Assembly (NCBI GenBank): GCA_030591965.1
Contig: JAUVAA010000004.1
Location: 1-45,672, forward strand
Origin: a bacterium
GTDB taxonomy: Bacteria > Pseudomonadota > Gammaproteobacteria > Methylococcales > Methylomonadaceae
Direction: 5' to 3'
DNA length: 45,672 nt
Part shown: piece after piece, positions 17,397 to 31,013 of the stretch
Numbering within the stretch: position 1 is the first letter of the stretch
Layout of the letters: each line of letters starts with the position of its first letter
Notes under the pieces: generated by a model
Database searches by the model: none
What the model saw: the letters and a program-made list of their open reading frames with translations, nothing else
What the model was told of the DNA's origin: nothing
Position numbers and translations under genes: made by a program

Positions 17397-19685
17397 TTAT
17401 TTCTTCAGCGCCTTAGCAAAGGCATGGGCCATAGAGCCTTGAGTTTTTTCAGCTGCTGGCTTAGGTTTATGTGCTTTTCTGGGTGGGGCATTGTCGGCTT
17501 TTAGGTGGACTTGCTCACCAACAGGCGCATCTTTTTTCATCGATAAAGCAATACGTTTACGTGCGACATCGATTTCAATGACTTTAACGTTAACCATATC
17601 TCCTGTTTTGACCACTTCGCGTGGGTCTTTGACGAACACATCTGCTAAATGTGAGATATGGATCAATCCATCCTGATGCACGCCTATATCAACAAACGCC
17701 CCGAAATTAGCCACGTTGGTTACTACACCTTCTAATCGCATACCTTCTTTGAGGTCGGTGATTTTCTCGATACCTGCTTTAAAGGTGACGCTTTTAAATT
17801 CAGGTCTAGGATCGCGGCCGGGTTTTTCCAGTTCTTGCAAAATGTCAGTGACGGTGGGTAAGCCAAAATTTTCATTGGTGTAATCAGCGGGGTTTAAATT
17901 ACGTAAGACGCTGCTTTTGCCGACCAGTTCATTAATTGGCGTGCCGGTTTTTTTAACAATATCTTCAATTACTGGATAGGCTTCGGGGTGAACTGCCGAG
18001 CTATCCAACGGGTTATCGCCATTCATAATACGTAAAAACCCTGCTGCTTGTTCGTAAGCTTTACCACCTAGACGCGGTACTTTTTTCAGTTGTTTACGGT
18101 TTTTAAAAGCGCCTTGCTCATCTCTAAACGCGACAATATTATGGCTGATGGTATTGGATATACCTGACACCTGTTTTAGCAGGGCGGCAGAAGCGATATT
18201 AACGTCCACGCCGACAGCATTTACACAATCTTCGACGACGGCATCGAGTCCGCGAGCTAATTTAATTTGATTAACATCGTGCTGATATTGACCGACACCA
18301 ATAGATTTGGGCTCGATTTTTACAAGTTCCGCAAGTGGATCTTGTAAACGGCGTGCAATTGACACTGCGCCGCGTAGTGATACATCTATATCAGGAAATT
18401 CTTGCGAGGCAAGTTCTGAGGCGGAATACACGGATGCACCAGCTTCTGAAACGGTTATTTTGCTGAATTTTAAGTCTTTGTGTTGCTTCATAAGATCGGC
18501 AACCAGTTGATCTGTTTCGCGTGAACCTGTGCCATTACCGATACTGACTAACTCAACTTGATGCTGTTTAATAAGTTTGGCAATGGTAGCGATAGAAGCA
18601 TCCCACTGATTTCTTGGTGGGTGTGGGTAAATAGTTTCTGTGGCAACGAGCTTTCCTGTGGTATCGACAACAGCAACTTTTACGCCGGTACGAATGCCGG
18701 GGTCTAAACCTAAAGTGGCTTTAGGGCCTGCAGGTGCGGCGAGTAATAAATCTTTCAGGTTGTTGGCGAATACTTTTATCGCTTCTAGTTCAGCCGCTTC
18801 ACGTAATTGCTGTTTTAAATCTAAATCAATACGCGTAAATAATTTAACCTTCCAGGCAAAACGTGCTGTGTCAGCTAACCAAGCGTCTGCTGCTTTGCTG
18901 GTGTCAGTGACATGAATATGGCGCGCTACAATTTGTGCGCACAGTTGATGATCGGCTTTTTCATCATTACCTGGTAGTAAATTAACATTCAATAAATTCT
19001 CATTACGACCGCGAAACAAAGCTAAAGCGCGATGCGAAGGGATTTTATTGATAGCTTCTTGATAATCAAAATAATCTTTGAATTTCGCAGCTTCGGCTTC
19101 TTTATCTTTGGCAACTGTGGCATGAATAATCCCTTTTTGCCAAATACGTTCACGTAGCGTACTGACCAGTTCGGCATCTTCTGAAATACGCTCCATAATA
19201 ATTTGGCGCGCACCAGCTAAGGCGGCATCAGCATCGTTAATACCATTGTCGGTATTAATATAACCGGCGGCAAGCTGCTCTGGATTGCAGTTTCTATCGT
19301 CTAAAATAGCATCGGCTAGCGGCTCTAAACCAGCTTCGCGTGCTATTTGGGCTTTGGTGCGTCGTTTGGGTTTATAGGGTAAATATAAATCTTCTAGTCG
19401 GGTTTTGGTATCCGCTTCTTTAATAGCCAATTCTAAAGCAGGAGTGAGCTTGTCTTGAGAGGCGATGCTTTCTAATATGGTCTCACGACGCGCATTAAGT
19501 TCGCGTAAATAAATTAAGCGTTCAGCTAAGAGCCGTAGCTGAATATCATCTAGCCCACCGGTGACTTCTTTACGGTAACGAGCGATAAACGGCACGGTTG
19601 CGCCTTCATCTAAAAGTGTGACTGCGGCTTTGACTTGATGCTGAGTAACGGCTAATTCGTCGGCAATTTTTTTGATAACGTCCAT
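17397..19685 (-). CDS. tex: Tex-type RNA-binding transcription accessory protein
   Basis: Tex proteins are YqgF-fold plus S1 proteins that bind nucleic acids and influence transcription and stress survival. The 762 residues include the N-terminal HTH-like region VTLLDEGATVPFIARYRKEVTG. The YqgF-like RNase H fold is TLGLDPGIRTGVKVAVVD near residue 325. SIGVGQYQHDVNQ and the helix-hairpin-helix region RKQLKKVPRLGGKAYEQAAGFLRI follow. The C-terminal S1 domain is GVVTNVANFGAFVDIGVHQD near residue 660, and the tail is basic. Length is normal. It stands alone in its transcript and its 5' side borders the retron cassette. Confidence 0.96.
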   Translation of the reverse strand: MDVIKKIADELAVTQHQVKAAVTLLDEGATVPFIARYRKEVTGGLDDIQLRLLAERLIYLRELNARRETILESIASQDKLTPALELAIKEADTKTRLEDLYLPYKPKRRTKAQIAREAGLEPLADAILDDRNCNPEQLAAGYINTDNGINDADAALAGARQIIMERISEDAELVSTLRERIWQKGIIHATVAKDKEAEAAKFKDYFDYQEAINKIPSHRALALFRGRNENLLNVNLLPGNDEKADHQLCAQIVARHIHVTDTSKAADAWLADTARFAWKVKLFTRIDLDLKQQLREAAELEAIKVFANNLKDLLLAAPAGPKATLGLDPGIRTGVKVAVVDTTGKLVATETIYPHPPRNQWDASIATIAKLIKQHQVELVSIGNGTGSRETDQLVADLMKQHKDLKFSKITVSEAGASVYSASELASQEFPDIDVSLRGAVSIARRLQDPLAELVKIEPKSIGVGQYQHDVNQIKLARGLDAVVEDCVNAVGVDVNIASAALLKQVSGISNTISHNIVAFRDEQGAFKNRKQLKKVPRLGGKAYEQAAGFLRIMNGDNPLDSSAVHPEAYPVIEDIVKKTGTPINELVGKSSVLRNLNPADYTNENFGLPTVTDILQELEKPGRDPRPEFKSVTFKAGIEKITDLKEGMRLEGVVTNVANFGAFVDIGVHQDGLIHISHLADVFVKDPREVVKTGDMVNVKVIEIDVARKRIALSMKKDAPVGEQVHLKADNAPPRKAHKPKPAAEKTQGSMAHAFAKALKK

Positions 19686-19778
19686 TTAGGGAAGCTCTTA
19701 TAAAGGATTGAAAAATAGGGTTGTATTAATATAAAATTGATGCAAATCCTTTGTTAATTCTACGCTGTCGTGTGAGGA

Positions 19779-20465
19779 TCATATAGGCAGAAATACTTGG
19801 AAATATTGTCGTCTTGTGGTTAAGAATGACTGGTGCTTATTATTAAATTCTTCCAATTCTAACTCGGCAAAATCAGATAGAGCGCTGGGGTTATCTAAAA
19901 GGTCGTTAACAATTTCTTGGCCTTCTAAAATCATATCGTAACGTGCGCGTTTCAATCGGCGGCAGTTAAGATTCAGTAAGTTTATTGTATATTCTGCTTT
20001 AGATGCCTGATTAACTGTCAAATTTGGATGAGGAGTAATTCGCCCATCTAATTCATAGTGAAAATAACTTTCACAGTTTTGGTCGGTGGGTTTTATAAAT
20101 AACTGTGGATCAAATTGACTCTTTTTTGCATGACCACAGCTAATTGGGTTAGGGGCGAGAGTAGATGACGATATTTCATATCCTGAGTCAAAGCATGAGA
20201 TCAATAGATTACTAAAATCAAAGGTACGGCTTGGCCTCATAGATTTTGGTTCTATATGTTCAATATGATAACCAATATTGCCTTCACCACGAACTAATTC
20301 AATTTCGCAATAGGAACAAAGATTTTTTTGCGCAGGTAGTAAACTATCTTGTACTGCCTTCGTATACTTAAAATTCTCCCAAGCCTTTGTGGAGTTAGCA
20401 ACAGGTTTTTTATGCCTTAAAGCAAGTTTTCTGGGAATATTCACAGGATGAATTAGATGCTTCAT
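19779..20465 (-). CDS. Retron effector HNH endonuclease (PtuB-like, TIGR02646-type)
   Basis: The 228-residue protein has a zinc-finger-like HNH nuclease: CSYCE near residue 50, then HIEHIEPKS, the NLLISC finger half near residue 89, and a later NPISCGHAK. This pattern matches the HNH family coupled to retron ATPases (known as retron-system HNH, PtuB). In studied ATPase+HNH retrons (Ec78 class) the nuclease is the toxic arm released when a phage disturbs the msDNA complex, and it cleaves tRNA in Eco7. That function is inferred by family here. Its ATG overlaps the ATPase stop by 4 bases (ATGA), showing tight translational coupling. Confidence 0.88.
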   Translation of the reverse strand: MKHLIHPVNIPRKLALRHKKPVANSTKAWENFKYTKAVQDSLLPAQKNLCSYCEIELVRGEGNIGYHIEHIEPKSMRPSRTFDFSNLLISCFDSGYEISSSTLAPNPISCGHAKKSQFDPQLFIKPTDQNCESYFHYELDGRITPHPNLTVNQASKAEYTINLLNLNCRRLKRARYDMILEGQEIVNDLLDNPSALSDFAELELEEFNNKHQSFLTTRRQYFQVFLPI

Positions 20466-22150
20466 TCTTTTCCAATAATCTTATTTTTATTTATAGCTAG
20501 CCACCGATTTATAGCCATATCTGCTAATCGTAATTGGCTATAATTCTTACCATAGTGTTTTTCTAATTCTGTACGTAATGATCTAATGTCATTTGATTCA
20601 ATATCCCCTCGATTAACTCTTTCAAGGTAGGCTGTTAGTTGTTGGGACATTAAATCCTGAGGGCGTGAATCAACATTCATGACATCTTCAAGAGTTGTAC
20701 GACTTTCTTCACCAAGGGTGTTCACTGATGCATTAAATACGCCATCTTTGGTTAAAATACGAATACATTTATGATGCACTGTCGTTAAAACTTGTGGGCT
20801 ATGAGTTGTAACAATAAATTGAATATTAGGAAAAGTTTTTAATAAATTAGGTATAACGGATTGCTGCCATGTGGGATGTAGATGCAGATCGATTTCATCA
20901 ATTAAAACGATGCCATTGCCTTCTAAAGGATTACCTAATGACGGATTTAATAGCACTAGACGGCGCGCAATATCGGCAATTAAAGCCAGTAATGATTTTT
21001 CGCCTTGTGATAATTGTAGAATATTTAAGGTAATATCATTTTTATTAATTAATACTTCAAAGGGGCTTAGTTGAATGCGTAAGTCACTAAAATCAGGCAT
21101 AAATGTATAAATCGCTTGAGTTACATATTTAATGATAATGCTGGACTGTATTGACGGATTATTAATGATTTGAGCTTGTAACTTGTTTATTGCTTGTTGC
21201 TTTTGCTGCTTAAATACCCGCAAAAACTCGTTTATATTAGCATCCGTCATCGCTTGTTTTTCCATTGCCATAACAAGTTCACTATCTAACTCGGCCTGTA
21301 ATGCACTAATGGATGTTAATATCTCTTGGTTCTGTTGATTGTTTGCATTGCTAGAGTCGTTTAAATATTTAAACCAATGCATGAATAACTTAAAATCACC
21401 TTTACCATTAAGCGTTTCTTTATCGTAAGCATCAAGTTTCACCCAATGTTTTTGGTCTAAAGCTGTACTAAATTCAATGTCTTTTTTGTTTATATCAATA
21501 GCGCGCTTATCCCCATAAAAAGCCATAATAGGAAAGCTACATTGATCATTTTTTGAGTGTGCTAACTTATATAGGGCTGCGAGTTGTTTAATGTTTTCCA
21601 GAGAGCTCTTTCTTGAAATATGACTACCTTTCCTAGATTTAGATAATTCAAGTTCATATTGTGCATTCTTTGTGATTAAAAACTGACTGACAATAGATGC
21701 GTACTTAGGGATACTGTTGTTATTTATATCTAATTCATTAATTGAGTCGCCTGTACCGCTATCCTTACTACTGCGTATGCCATTAATTAACCAGCTTAAA
21801 CTTTTTGCCAGTGTCTCTAAAATGGTAGTTTTCCCTGCACCATTATTACCAATAATGACGGTTAAGTTAGAGCCATGTTTATATTGATGACAAAAATCAA
21901 TTTCAAGGTCTTCAAAAACACGAAAATCAGTAAGTTTTAAGGATGACACTTGTAAAGACTGAGGTTGAAACAGCTCTAACACTTTTGCATAGTATATTTC
22001 AGCTTGCTCAGGGGCTTTTTCTACATACTGACCTTGTTCATAGTTCTGCGCTAATTGGAATAAAGCATTCATATCGCCTTTATGTGCTTTATTTTCCAAA
22101 GCTCTAATGGTTTTATGTTTTTTTCTACCTTCGGATTGGTTCATCTTCAC
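20462..22150 (-). CDS. Retron effector ATPase with Sel1-like N-terminus (PtuA-like)
   Basis: The 562-residue P-loop ATPase is of the SMC/RecF-like type. Residues about 25-60 (DMNALFQLAQNYEQGQ..., AEIYYAKVLEL) form one Sel1-like helical repeat. Walker A is IIGNNGAGKTTILETL near residue 98, the signature is LSQGEKSLLALIADIARR near residue 385, and Walker B is GIVLIDEIDLHLHPTWQQ near residue 418. TTHSPQVL follows near residue 449. A helical region lies between the ATPase halves. It overlaps the reverse transcriptase 3' end by 26 bases and the HNH gene by 4, so the three genes form one operon. This architecture is that of PtuA in Septu and type I-A retrons. Confidence 0.88.
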   Translation of the reverse strand: MKMNQSEGRKKHKTIRALENKAHKGDMNALFQLAQNYEQGQYVEKAPEQAEIYYAKVLELFQPQSLQVSSLKLTDFRVFEDLEIDFCHQYKHGSNLTVIIGNNGAGKTTILETLAKSLSWLINGIRSSKDSGTGDSINELDINNNSIPKYASIVSQFLITKNAQYELELSKSRKGSHISRKSSLENIKQLAALYKLAHSKNDQCSFPIMAFYGDKRAIDINKKDIEFSTALDQKHWVKLDAYDKETLNGKGDFKLFMHWFKYLNDSSNANNQQNQEILTSISALQAELDSELVMAMEKQAMTDANINEFLRVFKQQKQQAINKLQAQIINNPSIQSSIIIKYVTQAIYTFMPDFSDLRIQLSPFEVLINKNDITLNILQLSQGEKSLLALIADIARRLVLLNPSLGNPLEGNGIVLIDEIDLHLHPTWQQSVIPNLLKTFPNIQFIVTTHSPQVLTTVHHKCIRILTKDGVFNASVNTLGEESRTTLEDVMNVDSRPQDLMSQQLTAYLERVNRGDIESNDIRSLRTELEKHYGKNYSQLRLADMAINRWLAINKNKIIGKE

Positions 22151-23084
22151 CCTCCATGCTGGTACTAATTTGGTTTATTGTCTCAAAAGAATATTTTTTT
22201 ATCATTCTCTGTTTAAAATCAGGTTCTATATGACAAGCAAAAGCGAGTAAACCTTGTAAATACTGTCTGTCTTCTGTGGGAAGTTGCCCGAGGTTAAATT
22301 GATGAATTAAGGATGAAATATAGCGTTTTTTTTGTCGCCCAATGGAAAGTTTATTTTCATTGGTTAAAGTAATCCCTGTGATATGTCTGTTATGCGCTTT
22401 TGATGAAAAAACGGTCTTGCTTTCATTAACAGTAATCGCGCCATTAAAATGATTAACGAGTAGTTTTTTAACTAAATGAGGTATTTCAAATAATGTATTT
22501 TTAGTATTTGTTGAAAAGCTTATATCGTCTGCATAACGAGTATAGGTAATATTTTGCCTGTGGCATTCTGTATATAAGGCTTGATCAAAAAAGAACATAA
22601 TCACATTGGAAATAAAAGGTGAGCTGGGCGCGCCAATACTTAGAATAAGTTTACCACCACTGCGCTTACTCGGGTTCCAGAATAGAATTTGACTTAAAAG
22701 ATAGCGATCTTCTTGCGTTAGATCAACCTTTAGTTTTTCAAGTATAGAGAGAAATAACTTTGGTTTAATACTGTGAAAAAAATCCTGAAAATCCATTTTT
22801 AACAGATATTTTGATTGCTGATGTTGTGCCGCATTTTGTTTAATGCCTGTATTTTTTTTATATGCAAAAGCGACATCGTGCACAGGAAGTGATTGTTCAA
22901 GTAAGCTTATTAATGTTCTTTGGTATTCTTTTAACTTTTTAGCAGGGTGGGCAATGGTACGCTTGCCTGAGGTTCTTTTAGGGATGGTATAAATTTTATA
23001 CATTTTTGGCGCGGATAATATAAATTTATCTATTTCTTGTTTAGAGGTCGATAGCTCCGTACTCAAAAATTGATAAAGTTGCAT
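22125..23084 (-). CDS. Retron reverse transcriptase
   Basis: The 319-residue RT makes branched msDNA from the adjacent non-coding RNA. The motifs in order are the early block YTIPKRTSGKRTIAHPA near residue 32, the retron-specific NAxxH box as NAAQH near residue 84, and LLKMDFQDFFHSI with the first catalytic Asp. Then come GAPSSPFISNVIMFFFD, the catalytic YADD in TRYADDISFST near residue 181, and the retron VTG box as HITGITL near residue 235, where Ile replaces Val. NAxxH and (V/I)TG separate it from group II intron and DGR reverse transcriptases. The thumb tail contains the basic GRQKKRYISSLIHQ. AAGG lies upstream of ATG 23084. Confidence 0.93.
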   Translation of the reverse strand: MQLYQFLSTELSTSKQEIDKFILSAPKMYKIYTIPKRTSGKRTIAHPAKKLKEYQRTLISLLEQSLPVHDVAFAYKKNTGIKQNAAQHQQSKYLLKMDFQDFFHSIKPKLFLSILEKLKVDLTQEDRYLLSQILFWNPSKRSGGKLILSIGAPSSPFISNVIMFFFDQALYTECHRQNITYTRYADDISFSTNTKNTLFEIPHLVKKLLVNHFNGAITVNESKTVFSSKAHNRHITGITLTNENKLSIGRQKKRYISSLIHQFNLGQLPTEDRQYLQGLLAFACHIEPDFKQRMIKKYSFETINQISTSMEGEDEPIRR

Positions 23085-23108
23085 TAGTGGCCTTATAGGT
23101 GAAAATTT

Positions 23109-23146
23109 AAAAACATTAACAGGCTATAAAGCCTGATAATGTTTTT
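23109..23146 (-). terminator. Terminator-like hairpin between retron RNA and RT gene
   Basis: Read on the - strand, AAAAACATTA pairs with TAATGTTTTT and, after one T-T mismatch, CAGGC pairs with GCCTG around TTTATA. The stem ends in a T-run. It can terminate or attenuate transcription after the ncRNA so that more msr-msd RNA than RT mRNA is made. The RT start is 25 bases beyond it. Confidence 0.65.
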
Positions 23147-23154
23147 AAATGATA

Positions 23155-23322
23155 AACTCTTTACTAAAGGAAGCGGAATATGTTTTCTGCGCTTCTGAAA
23201 TGAAGAATGAGTTTAAGAAGCGCAGAAAATGTATTTCGCAACCTAAAACCACTCAATAAATTTGAGTCTGGCTAAACGCCCGACTAGATCAAAAAATTAT
23301 TAATCCAAAACACTAAAGAGTT
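23155..23322 (-). ncRNA. Candidate retron msr-msd RNA (about 168 nt)
   Basis: Reading on the - strand, the a1 arm AACTCTTTA (23322-23314) pairs exactly with a2 TAAAGAGTT (23163-23155). Inside lies a small msr hairpin ACTCA/TGAGT (23267-23251). The long msd hairpin has a 14-bp perfect core TTTTCTGCGCTTCT/AGAAGCGCAGAAAA (23229-23216 with 23196-23183), a 19-base loop, and ten more base positions below it with three mismatches (23239-23230 with 23182-23173). The only TAGC, the usual branching-G context, places the G at 23272. An alternative hairpin AGTC-GGC/GCC-GACT (23285-23265) competes with the msr hairpin. Boundaries come from pairing and the -10 box only. Confidence 0.75.
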
Positions 23323-23329
23323 GTTTTTT

Positions 23330-23335
23330 ATTATA
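23330..23335 (-). promoter_or_regulatory. -10 box of the retron transcript
   Basis: A perfect TATAAT on the - strand ends 7 bases before the a1 arm, so initiation would fall on or near the first base of a1. The region 17 bases upstream (ATTTTC) is a weak -35. This supports a1 being the 5' end of the ncRNA. Confidence 0.65.
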
Positions 23336-23387
23336 TCATTTGTACCTACATAGAAAATCCCCTAATTAATCATCAAGCAATATATTA

Positions 23388-24662
23388 ATGAAAACAGCTC
23401 TTTTAGCCGGTACGCAGTCAGGTTGTGGCAAGACCACGATAATGTTGGCTTTGTTGCAATATTTAAAAGCACAACAGCATAAGGTGGTGTCTTTTAAAGC
23501 GGGGCCTGATTTTTTAGATCCTTTATGGCATCAGACGATTACCGGCAAGTGTTCTTATAATATGGATACGCGCATGATTGGCGCGTCGAATAGTCAGCAG
23601 TTATTAGCTAAGCAAGCACTTACTGCCGATGTTGCAGTTATTGAAGGGGTGATGGGTTTATTTGATGGGCGCTCAGGTGTCGGTGAAAGTGGCTCTAGCG
23701 CGGAATTAGCACAAGCTTTGCAAGTGCCCGTTTTTTTAGTGGTTGACACTAAAGGGATGAGTGGTTCGATTGTGCCGTTGGTTAGTGGTTTTTGCGCTTA
23801 TGCTGAAAAGATGGGTGTTAAGATTGCAGGCATTATCGCTAACCGAGTCGGTAGTGCGCATCATGCGAGTTTATTAAAAACCGTTTTACAGGAACATCAG
23901 CAACCGCCTTTAGTTGCTTGGATGGCTAAAGGTGCATCTGTATTACCCGAGCGACATTTAGGTTTGATGCAGCCTTCTGAAGTGGTTTTGCCTGATTTCT
24001 TGCCTTTTTTTCATGTGGAGATAGAGAATTTAGTCGCCTTGTTTTCTGAGGCGGATAGTCATTCAGATGAACAAAATCCAGCCCAATTATTAAAAGGTAA
24101 AAAAATCGCTATCGCGCAAGACTCAGCCTGTTGTTTTATTTATCCGGCCAATCTGGAATTTTTACGAGAGCAGGGCGCAGAGCTTTTATTTTTTTCGCCT
24201 GTTGCGGGTGATGTGACTCCTAAAGGTGCTGATGCACTATGGTTGCCGGGTGGTTATCCTGAGTTATTTGCAGAAGCTTTGTCTCTCTCAAAGACTTGGC
24301 TTTCTTTAGGTGAATTTATCGAAGCCGGTAAGCCTGTATTAGCTGAATGTGGGGGTGCAATGTTATTGGGAGAGGCTTTAATTGATCATGATGGCAAGTC
24401 TTGGGCGATGGCGAATATTTTACCTTTTCGCTCGAAAATGCAGCATAGGCTGACTTCTTTAGGTTATCGGGAGGATGCGTCAGGTATCAAAGGGCATGAG
24501 TTTCATCATTCTGTGCGTGAGTCCGAGCAAGCACTAGAAAGCTGCTTACAAACGGATCGGGGTGATCAGGGTGTGCGTTATAAAAATTGTCGTGCTTCTT
24601 ATGTGCATTGGTATTTTGCCAGTGCGCCTGAAGTTATAAGTAAATGGTTGAGTGGGAATTAA
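23388..24662 (+). CDS. cobB: Cobyrinate a,c-diamide synthase
   Basis: This enzyme amidates the a and c side chains of cobyrinic acid (or hydrogenobyrinic acid) using ATP and glutamine, in cobalamin synthesis. The 424-residue protein starts with a P-loop AGTQSGCGKTTIMLALLQYL. VSFKAGPDFLDPLWH and VEGVMGLFDG follow in the CobQ/BioD-like ATP domain. The C-terminal class I amidotransferase has LWLPGGYPELF and the Cys nucleophile AECGGAMLLGEAL near residue 325. cobO starts directly after its stop. It is divergent from the retron, whose promoter lies only about 50 bases away. No cobalamin riboswitch is visible in that gap. Confidence 0.93.
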   Translation: MKTALLAGTQSGCGKTTIMLALLQYLKAQQHKVVSFKAGPDFLDPLWHQTITGKCSYNMDTRMIGASNSQQLLAKQALTADVAVIEGVMGLFDGRSGVGESGSSAELAQALQVPVFLVVDTKGMSGSIVPLVSGFCAYAEKMGVKIAGIIANRVGSAHHASLLKTVLQEHQQPPLVAWMAKGASVLPERHLGLMQPSEVVLPDFLPFFHVEIENLVALFSEADSHSDEQNPAQLLKGKKIAIAQDSACCFIYPANLEFLREQGAELLFFSPVAGDVTPKGADALWLPGGYPELFAEALSLSKTWLSLGEFIEAGKPVLAECGGAMLLGEALIDHDGKSWAMANILPFRSKMQHRLTSLGYREDASGIKGHEFHHSVRESEQALESCLQTDRGDQGVRYKNCRASYVHWYFASAPEVISKWLSGN

Positions 24663-29700: not shown

Positions 29701-29769
29701 AATAAATTCAACTCGATTGCCGCCTTGGGAAGTGTTGCAGAAAGATTATTCGCCATAATGTGTTTTGGC
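29701..29769. repeat. Decayed copy of the ubiX 3' end
   Basis: AATAAATTCAACTCGATTGC at 29701 matches ubiX bases 26760-26781 with two changes over 22 bases. From 29723 the match jumps to 26850-26895, so about 68 bases are deleted. The end of the RelE-like gene lies inside this copy on the opposite strand. Confidence 0.75.
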
Positions 29770-30009
29770 TCTGACGATGATAACCGTACAGACATCTTTT
29801 TCTATACGGTAAACAATGCGATCTTGATAAGAAATCCTGACTGAATAATAGCCCTGTAAGCTACCAACTAAAGGTTTGCCTGATTCTGGATGAAGTGCAA
29901 TCTTTCGCCTTAAAATATCCTTTAGTTTTTCCTTCAATTTGGGAGAAAGACTTGTTATATCTTTTTGTGCTCTTTTGGTGAATTGTAGTTTGTAAGGCTG
30001 GCGCTCCAT
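29746..30009 (-). CDS. RelE/ParE-superfamily toxin
   Basis: The 87-residue basic protein has the RelE fold pattern: YKLQFTKRAQKDITSLSP at the N-terminus, a helix KLKEKLKDILRRKIALHP, then GKPLVGSLQGYYSVRISYQDRIVYRIEKD and a VIIVRAKTHYGE tail. The RISYQDRIVYRI strand is typical of RelE/YafQ-type ribosome-dependent mRNA interferases. It is the second gene of an antitoxin-toxin pair and its ATG overlaps the antitoxin stop (TAATG). Its 3' end lies in the duplicated ubiX fragment, so its last residues may have been altered by that event. Confidence 0.87.
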   Translation of the reverse strand: MERQPYKLQFTKRAQKDITSLSPKLKEKLKDILRRKIALHPESGKPLVGSLQGYYSVRISYQDRIVYRIEKDVCTVIIVRAKTHYGE

Positions 30010-30269
30010 TATTGCGCTTCGCCAAATACGTCATCAAATTCTACGACATCGCCTCGGTCAGCTTCTTGTACGGATTCGGTGAAATGTTCTTTAAAACTGG
30101 GTTGGGATAGTAGGTAGAGGCTTTCTTGAAGGCTTTCATACTCGGCGGCAGACATCAGAATGGCATTTCCTGATTTATGTTGAACTTCAAAAATCTGATG
30201 TTGTTGATTGCTTTGTTTGATCAGTTCAAAAAACGATTTTCTAGCTTCTGTTGCTGTTAAGTTAATCAT
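30009..30269 (-). CDS. Phd/YefM-family antitoxin
   Basis: The 86-residue protein starts MINLTATEARKSFFELIKQSN, the Phd/YefM N-terminal DNA-binding part. A strand EVQHKSGNAILMSAAEYESLQESLYLL and an acidic C-terminal tail (DRGDVVEFDDVFGEAQ) follow, the latter expected to wrap the toxin. It represses its own operon by binding the palindrome at 30288-30319 and neutralises the downstream toxin. Confidence 0.9.
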   Translation of the reverse strand: MINLTATEARKSFFELIKQSNQQHQIFEVQHKSGNAILMSAAEYESLQESLYLLSQPSFKEHFTESVQEADRGDVVEFDDVFGEAQ

Positions 30270-30668: not shown

Positions 30669-31013
30669 TCAGTTCTCGCCTATTTTGTCTTGCGCGGATT
30701 GTACGATCACTTTATTAGCTTTAATGATTTCTCGAAAGGTAACTGACGTCGCCGCCCAGTCCACTATATCTACTTTAAAGGGTAAGTCTGATTCATCAAA
30801 GGCTTCCTTGAGAATGGCATATTCACTTAAGGATAGCGGCTGTTGAGTGATAATAGCTAAATCCAGATCAGAAAACTGTTTGGCTTTTCCTGTAACGCGC
30901 GAGCCAAATGCCCATACTTCATATAGAGGGGCGTAAGTTTTAATAATCTGATTTGTTTTTTTCCATTCTTCTGGCTTTACATTAAGTTTTGCTAAAGCCA
31001 TGCTATCTGTCAT
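30669..31013 (-). CDS. mntA: MNT-domain nucleotidyltransferase antitoxin (MntA-like)
   Basis: The 114-residue minimal nucleotidyltransferase has the exact GS-x10-DxD motif: GSRVTGKAKQFSDLDLAI near residues 37-54. A later Asp (KVDIVDW near residue 81) completes the triad. In MNT-HEPN modules this protein inactivates the HEPN toxin by adding AMP to its tyrosine. It overlaps hepT by 4 bases (ATGA). Its stop is followed by the dgt remnant. Confidence 0.87.
   Translation of the reverse strand: MTDSMALAKLNVKPEEWKKTNQIIKTYAPLYEVWAFGSRVTGKAKQFSDLDLAIITQQPLSLSEYAILKEAFDESDLPFKVDIVDWAATSVTFREIIKANKVIVQSAQDKIGEN

Follow-up and report, generated by a model that had tools for sequence, protein, structure and literature searches.

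In the parts of the published accounts drawn on here, the toxic PtuAB of Retron-Eco7 is neutralised by msr-msd together with the reverse transcriptase (RT) (PMC11555353), and in Ec83 the msDNA sequesters PtuAB until its phage-induced degradation (PMC12948488, PMC13158370). The reported targets are tRNA-Tyr for Eco7, with no tRNA decrease for Eco4 (PMC11555353), and single-stranded DNA for Ec83 (PMC12948488). Since the known I-A targets differ, the target at the locus described here is not fixed by analogy. Septu has been described as PtuA plus PtuB (PMC12948488). The priming guanosine of retrons is reported to lie within a1 or immediately behind it, in most cases in a TAGC context (PMC6868368), and the branch of Yf79 has been predicted at RNA position 12, G12 (PMC3335539).

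We analysed a stretch of 45,672 nucleotides (hereafter the window) that almost certainly contains the noncoding RNA of an anti-phage system of type I-A (retron-Septu), a complete one made up of a promoter, an msr-msd RNA, a hairpin, an RT, PtuA and PtuB.

Layout and gene content of the locus

Our analysis establishes the sequence, its conserved structure and which genes are present and in what order; all elements are on the minus strand (Table 1). From 23338 to 23105 the order is extended -10 element, a1, msr, msd hairpin, a2 and a further hairpin. RT, PtuA and PtuB follow 3′ of the RNA as three intact overlapping frames, the RT starting 70 nt after a2. The span from the start of a1 to the end of a2 is 168 nt, with a minimum free energy (MFE) of -56.3 kcal/mol (z -6.6; as low in 0 of 200 shuffles). 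The Rfam msr model matches it with 69.1 bits against a gathering cut-off of 52 (E = 1.3e-10 over the window), and this is the sole msr match reported in the genome, in which 150 of the 424 first-look candidates were scored. The initial annotation had proposed an msr-msd RNA carrying a -10 element, a1/a2 arms and an msd stem, and both the Rfam match and the homologues, which keep these elements, agree with it. Its details are confirmed in the sequence, namely a TATAAT ending seven bases before a nine-base a1, the exact pairing of a1 with a2, and an msd hairpin of 24 positions with a perfect 14-bp core, which forms 24 pairs in the predicted fold.

Table 1. Features of the retron locus, in window coordinates
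Feature	Position	Strand	Basis
Extended -10 promoter element TGATATAAT	23330-23338	-	Sequence; TATAAT 23335-23330, TGA before
a1 arm AACTCTTTA	23314-23322	-	Exact pairing with a2
Expected 2′-5′ branch guanosine, TAG^T context	23313	-	Comparison of I-A RNAs; position as in Yf79
msr helix SL1 (GGATTAA / TTGATCT), 7 bp	23286-23306	-	Locus-by-locus shuffle test
msr hairpin SL2 AGTCGGGCGTTTAGCCAGACT, TAGC 23274-23271 in apex	23265-23285	-	Alignment pairing
Rfam RF00170 retron msr match	23248-23321	-	69.1 bits
msd hairpin, perfect 14-bp core 23229-23216 / 23196-23183	23173-23239	-	Fold, both-sided changes
Probable msd template, ~80-89 nt, starting at the base that precedes a2 and running towards msr	23164-23252	-	Homology with published Yf79 prediction
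a2 arm TAAAGAGTT	23155-23163	-	Exact pairing with a1
20-pair hairpin between ncRNA and RT	23105-23150	-	Fold; putative role, terminator-like or attenuator
Retron reverse transcriptase, 319 aa	22125-23084	-	PADLOC, NCBIfam, PDB matches
PtuA-type ATPase, 562 aa from GTG; alternative ATG 6 bases on	20462-22150	-	PADLOC, PDB
PtuB-type HNH nuclease, 228 aa	19779-20465	-	PADLOC, PDB

The RT contains NAAQH, YADD and ITG, which we take to be RT motifs. Its best PADLOC model is RT_I-A (459.6 bits; next model RT_II-A, 397.7), its score with NCBIfam St85 RT is 337.7 (cut-off 235), and in the PDB it matches a chain named Ec78 RT (320.8 bits) and the Ec83 RT (295 bits). PtuA is best matched by PADLOC ATPase_I-A (525.8 bits) and has a PDB match to the Ec83 ATPase (328.3 bits). 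For PtuB, the best PADLOC model is PtuB (182.3), with HNH_I-A third (150.2 bits), and among PDB chains it matches the PtuB of entry 8ee7 most strongly (113 bits), presumably a stand-alone Septu. PtuA and PtuB stand together in an operon, and TIGR02646 gives 107.7 (cut-off 52.15). The scores with the NCBIfam equivalogs of retron Ec78 (NF041760, NF041761) fall below the cut-offs, at 498.1 of 500 for PtuA and 124.7 of 150 for PtuB. This counts against our reading of the locus, which is consequently classed as an I-A retron and not as an Ec78 orthologue. The general features of a retron are all found (an RT with an ncRNA, a1/a2 repeats with a G at the end of a1, and an msd hairpin template), as are those of type I-A (an RT of the I-A lineage, a PtuA ATPase and a PtuB HNH nuclease). 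Judged from its sequences, the locus belongs to the type I-A retrons. The same genome holds one more RT match, a distant one (28%), at another place (L002, G000:C214:1125-1649).

A near-consensus -10 element (at least 5 of 6 letters) is found at about the same spacing from a1 in 27 of 60 loci, the window included, versus 5 of 60 in a control zone further upstream. No -35/-10 pair was picked up here by the promoter scan, a point against our reading of the locus. With no -35 recognisable at the locus, the retron could be silent or decayed, its RNA and genes no longer yielding msDNA or defence; the three intact overlapping frames, the RT and HNH motifs, the exact a1/a2 pairing and the perfect msd core all speak against this, and we consider it very unlikely.

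Conservation of the RNA among relatives

A profile of eight RTs searched against genome contigs gave 80 loci, the best of 577 confirmed stretches, and eight further loci were taken from plasmid and phage records. L033, a duplicate of L017, was omitted from the alignment, the trees and the SL1, hairpin, structural-scan and -10 counts, and was retained among the 65 loci of an unguided search for a1/a2 helices. The structural scan covered 88 loci (the window and L017-L104 without L033), of which 71 yielded the RNA and 17 gave no match. In the unguided search, 36 of the 65 RNAs were placed, by anchor match, close before the RT, and the alignment (A2) consists of 34 of these, L033 being left out along with L054, which is nearly identical to L049. 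Among the 44 rows with PtuA and PtuB, 11 stand outside A2: L026 and L031, in which the contig starts inside the RNA or RT; L043, L064, L068, L071, L076, L081 and L084, with no anchor match or cut; L052, with a2 misplaced; and L054. The nearest RTs among the matches listed (the best 80 of 577) are from Methylococcaceae MAGs. When the genome was searched for the AMO/pmoA family there was no match, and the control genomes gave none either.

The relatives, most of them gammaproteobacterial, keep the a1/a2 pairing, both helices of msr and the stem of msd, and compensatory changes are seen. The Rfam msr model scores above its cut-off in 13 of the 17 loci tried, and an E. coli RT-ptuA-ptuB locus (L125) is preceded by an RNA of the same plan. 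Across a1/a2, SL2 and two msd helices in the 34 aligned RNAs, the covariation score is 0.356, versus 0.141 in shuffles and at most 0.080 with slid partners, and 21 of the 32 pairs show both-sided changes. Conservation of the a1/a2 pairing and the msd stem, for which covariance over homologous loci had been named as the check, is confirmed by these values. In the a1/a2 helix, both-sided changes are found at 7 of 12 aligned pairs, all in the outer seven, and fewer than half of the sequences form the outermost three pairs. All 34 RNAs have CTTTAG and GTAAAG unchanged; the inner five pairs are invariant and thus yield no covariation signal. All 13 counted pairs of the two aligned msd helices show both-sided changes, and SL2 is paired in 100% of cells. 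The msd loop of the window, CTCATTCTTC at 23202-23211 (-), resembles the CTCGTTCCTC of many relatives despite differing stems. A conserved loop motif of this kind was considered and rejected, at least 8 of 10 letters being present in 20 of the 34 RNAs and the likeness being weak in the others.

SL1 is hard to align by sequence and was therefore tested locus by locus, in 60 of the 65 loci (L089, L092, L033, L052 and L062 were omitted). Its mean score is 4.78, versus 2.58 in shuffles, with P < 0.05 in 37 of the 60 loci, and its arms show 20 different four-base combinations plus six shorter ones. The other 23 loci miss this level, a point against our reading, and an SL1-type helix was not seen in several loci (e.g., L037, L087, L090, L094 and L100). 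The plan of the I-A RNA, backed by covariation, can be used for annotating other I-A RNAs.

A further hairpin follows a2. In the window it has 20 pairs and a folding energy of -23 kcal/mol (z -10.2). The gap between a2 and the RT was folded for 35 of the 36 RNAs, gaps of more than 130 nt being cut, and it folds unusually well (z < -2) in 34 of these 35 I-A loci, the window included; the sole exception is L029, whose gap is 22 nt. In L035, L040 and L051 the best stem of the gap cannot clearly be equated with this hairpin. Many of the gap stems have a run of T behind them, as in an intrinsic terminator, and few T follow that of the window. By its sequence the hairpin may be a terminator or attenuator, through which more ncRNA than RT mRNA would be made. 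The Rfam model STnc400 (RF02058), which spans msd, a2 and a hairpin of the post-a2 type, matches the window at 23121-23246 (-) with a score of 45, below its gathering cut-off of 80. At a loose threshold, its match starts three bases past the end of the msr match in all six chosen loci (L125, L126, L046, L070, L082 and L053), only L046 being above the cut-off. The proximity of msr and STnc400 has been noted in a published account of a Cronobacter retron (PMC12757443).

The branch guanosine and the alternative folds

The initial annotation had placed the 2′-5′ branch at G23272, in a TAGC about 40 bases after a1, and had taken this distance to be longer than usual. From the comparison of sequences, the branch is expected not there but at G23313, directly after a1 (CTTTA^G). 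A G directly follows a1 in all 34 aligned I-A RNAs. Over the 71 loci of the structural scan, a G follows the best helix in 61, although in two of these (L028 and L037) the helix is a chance one at a different place; in the remaining 10, the helix chosen by the program lacks a following G. The unguided search, which sometimes picked chance helices, gave a best a1/a2 helix with a G behind it in 52 of 65 loci, four of them (L049, L052, L053 and L054) at another place. The unpaired probability in the predicted fold is 0.99 for G23313 and 0.00 for G23272. If the Yf79 RNA starts with TCAG, as assumed here, the G12 of the published prediction would be the G of CTCTTTAG adjoining a1 in L058, and the equivalent base in the window is G23313. 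The context of the latter is TAGT and not TAGC, a point against our choice; TTA^GT is found in 8 of the 71 loci, the window included.

The TAGC does lie about 40 bases after a1. It forms the apex of a hairpin, SL2, so the 40-base gap is no anomaly, and the long distance from a1 to the branch vanishes because the branch base had been wrongly picked. The apex of SL2 reads TAGC in 48 of the 71 loci and TCGC, TTGC or similar in 23. The SL2 stem is a different one, AGTT/AACT, with AGTTTGGCGTTGCGCCAAACT or a sequence near it, in seven loci from Psychromonas, Colwellia (two that are identical in this part), Brenneria, Tatumella, Alteromonas and Pectobacterium.

The initial annotation had also suggested that the TAGC can be sequestered in a hairpin that competes with the msr stem, and that the two folds could gate priming. 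Its location in a hairpin is upheld, G23272 being paired; the gating is not supported. SL1 and SL2 stand side by side and are compatible (-4.3 and -9.5, in sum -13.8 kcal/mol). The full fold of the window prefers a small stem of six pairs, SL3, over the lower SL2 stem, whose pair probabilities are low in the window (0.02-0.43) because SL3 competes; this, too, counts against the preferred structure. SL3 is complete in 2 of the 34 RNAs (the window and L028), with at least five of its six pairs in 8 of the 34, and SL2 is paired in all cells, so a fold switch is not supported; by the fold model, it might at most operate in the RNA of the window alone. Priming from G23272 in a distant TAGC under the control of two competing msr folds has in its favour that TAGC is reported as the commonest branch context (PMC6868368) and that the MFE structure of the window holds SL3, but it is improbable in the extreme given the paired G23272 and free G23313, the loci that lack an apical TAGC, the constant G after a1, the rarity of a complete SL3 and the branch position published for Yf79 (PMC3335539). 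Both the apparent long gap and the fold switch can be traced to the misplaced branch base.

With G23313 as the branch base, we infer the priming site, the ends of the msDNA, the antitoxin role, the trigger and the action of the nuclease on its target as follows. The RT would bind msr and use the 2′-OH of G23313, beside a1, as primer, and msd would be copied from 23164 towards approximately 23252, giving an msDNA that is a branched hairpin some 80-89 nt long. If the system works as Ec83 and Ec78 do, PtuAB would be kept inactive by the complex of RT and msDNA, and attack of a phage on the msDNA would free the nuclease, upon which growth would stop.

Cassette history and comparison with described retrons

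The retron (19685-23388) occupies the gap between cob and tex. Among 18 genomes of the genus searched, its own included, 15 have a cob match, eight of them without a determined site. Cob and tex are adjacent without the retron, 128 to 316 bases apart, in G005, G012, G007, G006 and G016 (in the last, the cob match is fragmentary), and the gap is 674 bases in G017 (L118). The GC content is 34% in the retron stretch and 44% in the flanking genes. The cassette has probably been acquired. Elsewhere in the window, two small adjoining frames at 29746-30269 (-) are, by the look of their sequences, presumably a RelE-type toxin and antitoxin pair, and a small frame at 30669-31013 (-) looks like an MNT-type nucleotidyltransferase.

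The RT and PtuB trees comprise 44 rows, L028 and L063 being omitted as they end before a complete PtuA. In the RT tree, the window pairs with L025 (support 98/94; 70% identical), and a branch sets the six near RTs apart from the rest (71/79). The PtuB tree rejects both the pairing of the window with L025 (p-AU 0.00025) and the group of six (3.6e-5). PtuB of the window shares 31% identity with that of L025 and 36% with the Pseudomonas L048 protein; between L048 and the window, the RTs are only 51% identical. These sequences suggest that PtuB has a history different from that of the RT. The long branches of the PtuB tree, flagged by the program, are a caveat, and PtuB may instead have diverged fast. 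A joint swap of the PtuA tail with PtuB is not supported, quick trees giving mixed results: for the pair of the window and L025, p-AU is 0.47 for the tail (not rejected) and 0.0475 for the head (borderline), and for the wider clade of six rows it is 0.0057 for the tail (rejected) and 0.41 for the head (not rejected). If the window and L025, its nearest RT relative, do carry PtuBs of differing history, the molecule attacked upon infection, be it tRNA, ssDNA or another, could not be told from the RT lineage.

I-A retrons may keep one RT-msDNA lock and exchange the nuclease, with the conserved hairpin after a2 setting the amount of antitoxin RNA per RT and toxin, a proposal to which we give even chances. 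If nuclease exchange and the conserved hairpin both hold, they would help to explain the way a single msDNA guard can serve different toxins and how the antitoxin dose is set. Within the titles and abstracts covered, a set that excludes key structure papers, none concerns the post-a2 hairpin or PtuB exchange in I-A retrons.

Compared with Retron-Eco7 (Ec78), the RNA layout (a1-G-SL1-SL2-TTATTG-msd-a2-hairpin) and the gene order are alike. The RT and PtuA of the window are 49% and 32% identical to those of L125, which is probably Ec78-like, going by its annotation. The window differs in a longer SL1, in TAGT for TAGC, in a PtuB whose match to the chain named Ec78 HNH amounts to only 45 bits, and in its position relative to the equivalog cut-offs, PtuA being narrowly and PtuB clearly below. 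Retron-Eco4 (Ec83), also an I-A retron-Septu, has the ATPase closest to PtuA of the window among solved structures, whereas its HNH protein is weakly matched by the window PtuB (26 bits). The latter has its best solved match in the PtuB of 8ee7, yet sits in a retron operon. Retron-Yf79 of Yersinia frederiksenii (L058) has a distant RT (48%) and distant effectors (PtuB 31%), but shares the same RNA plan, with its predicted branch G12 adjoining a1.
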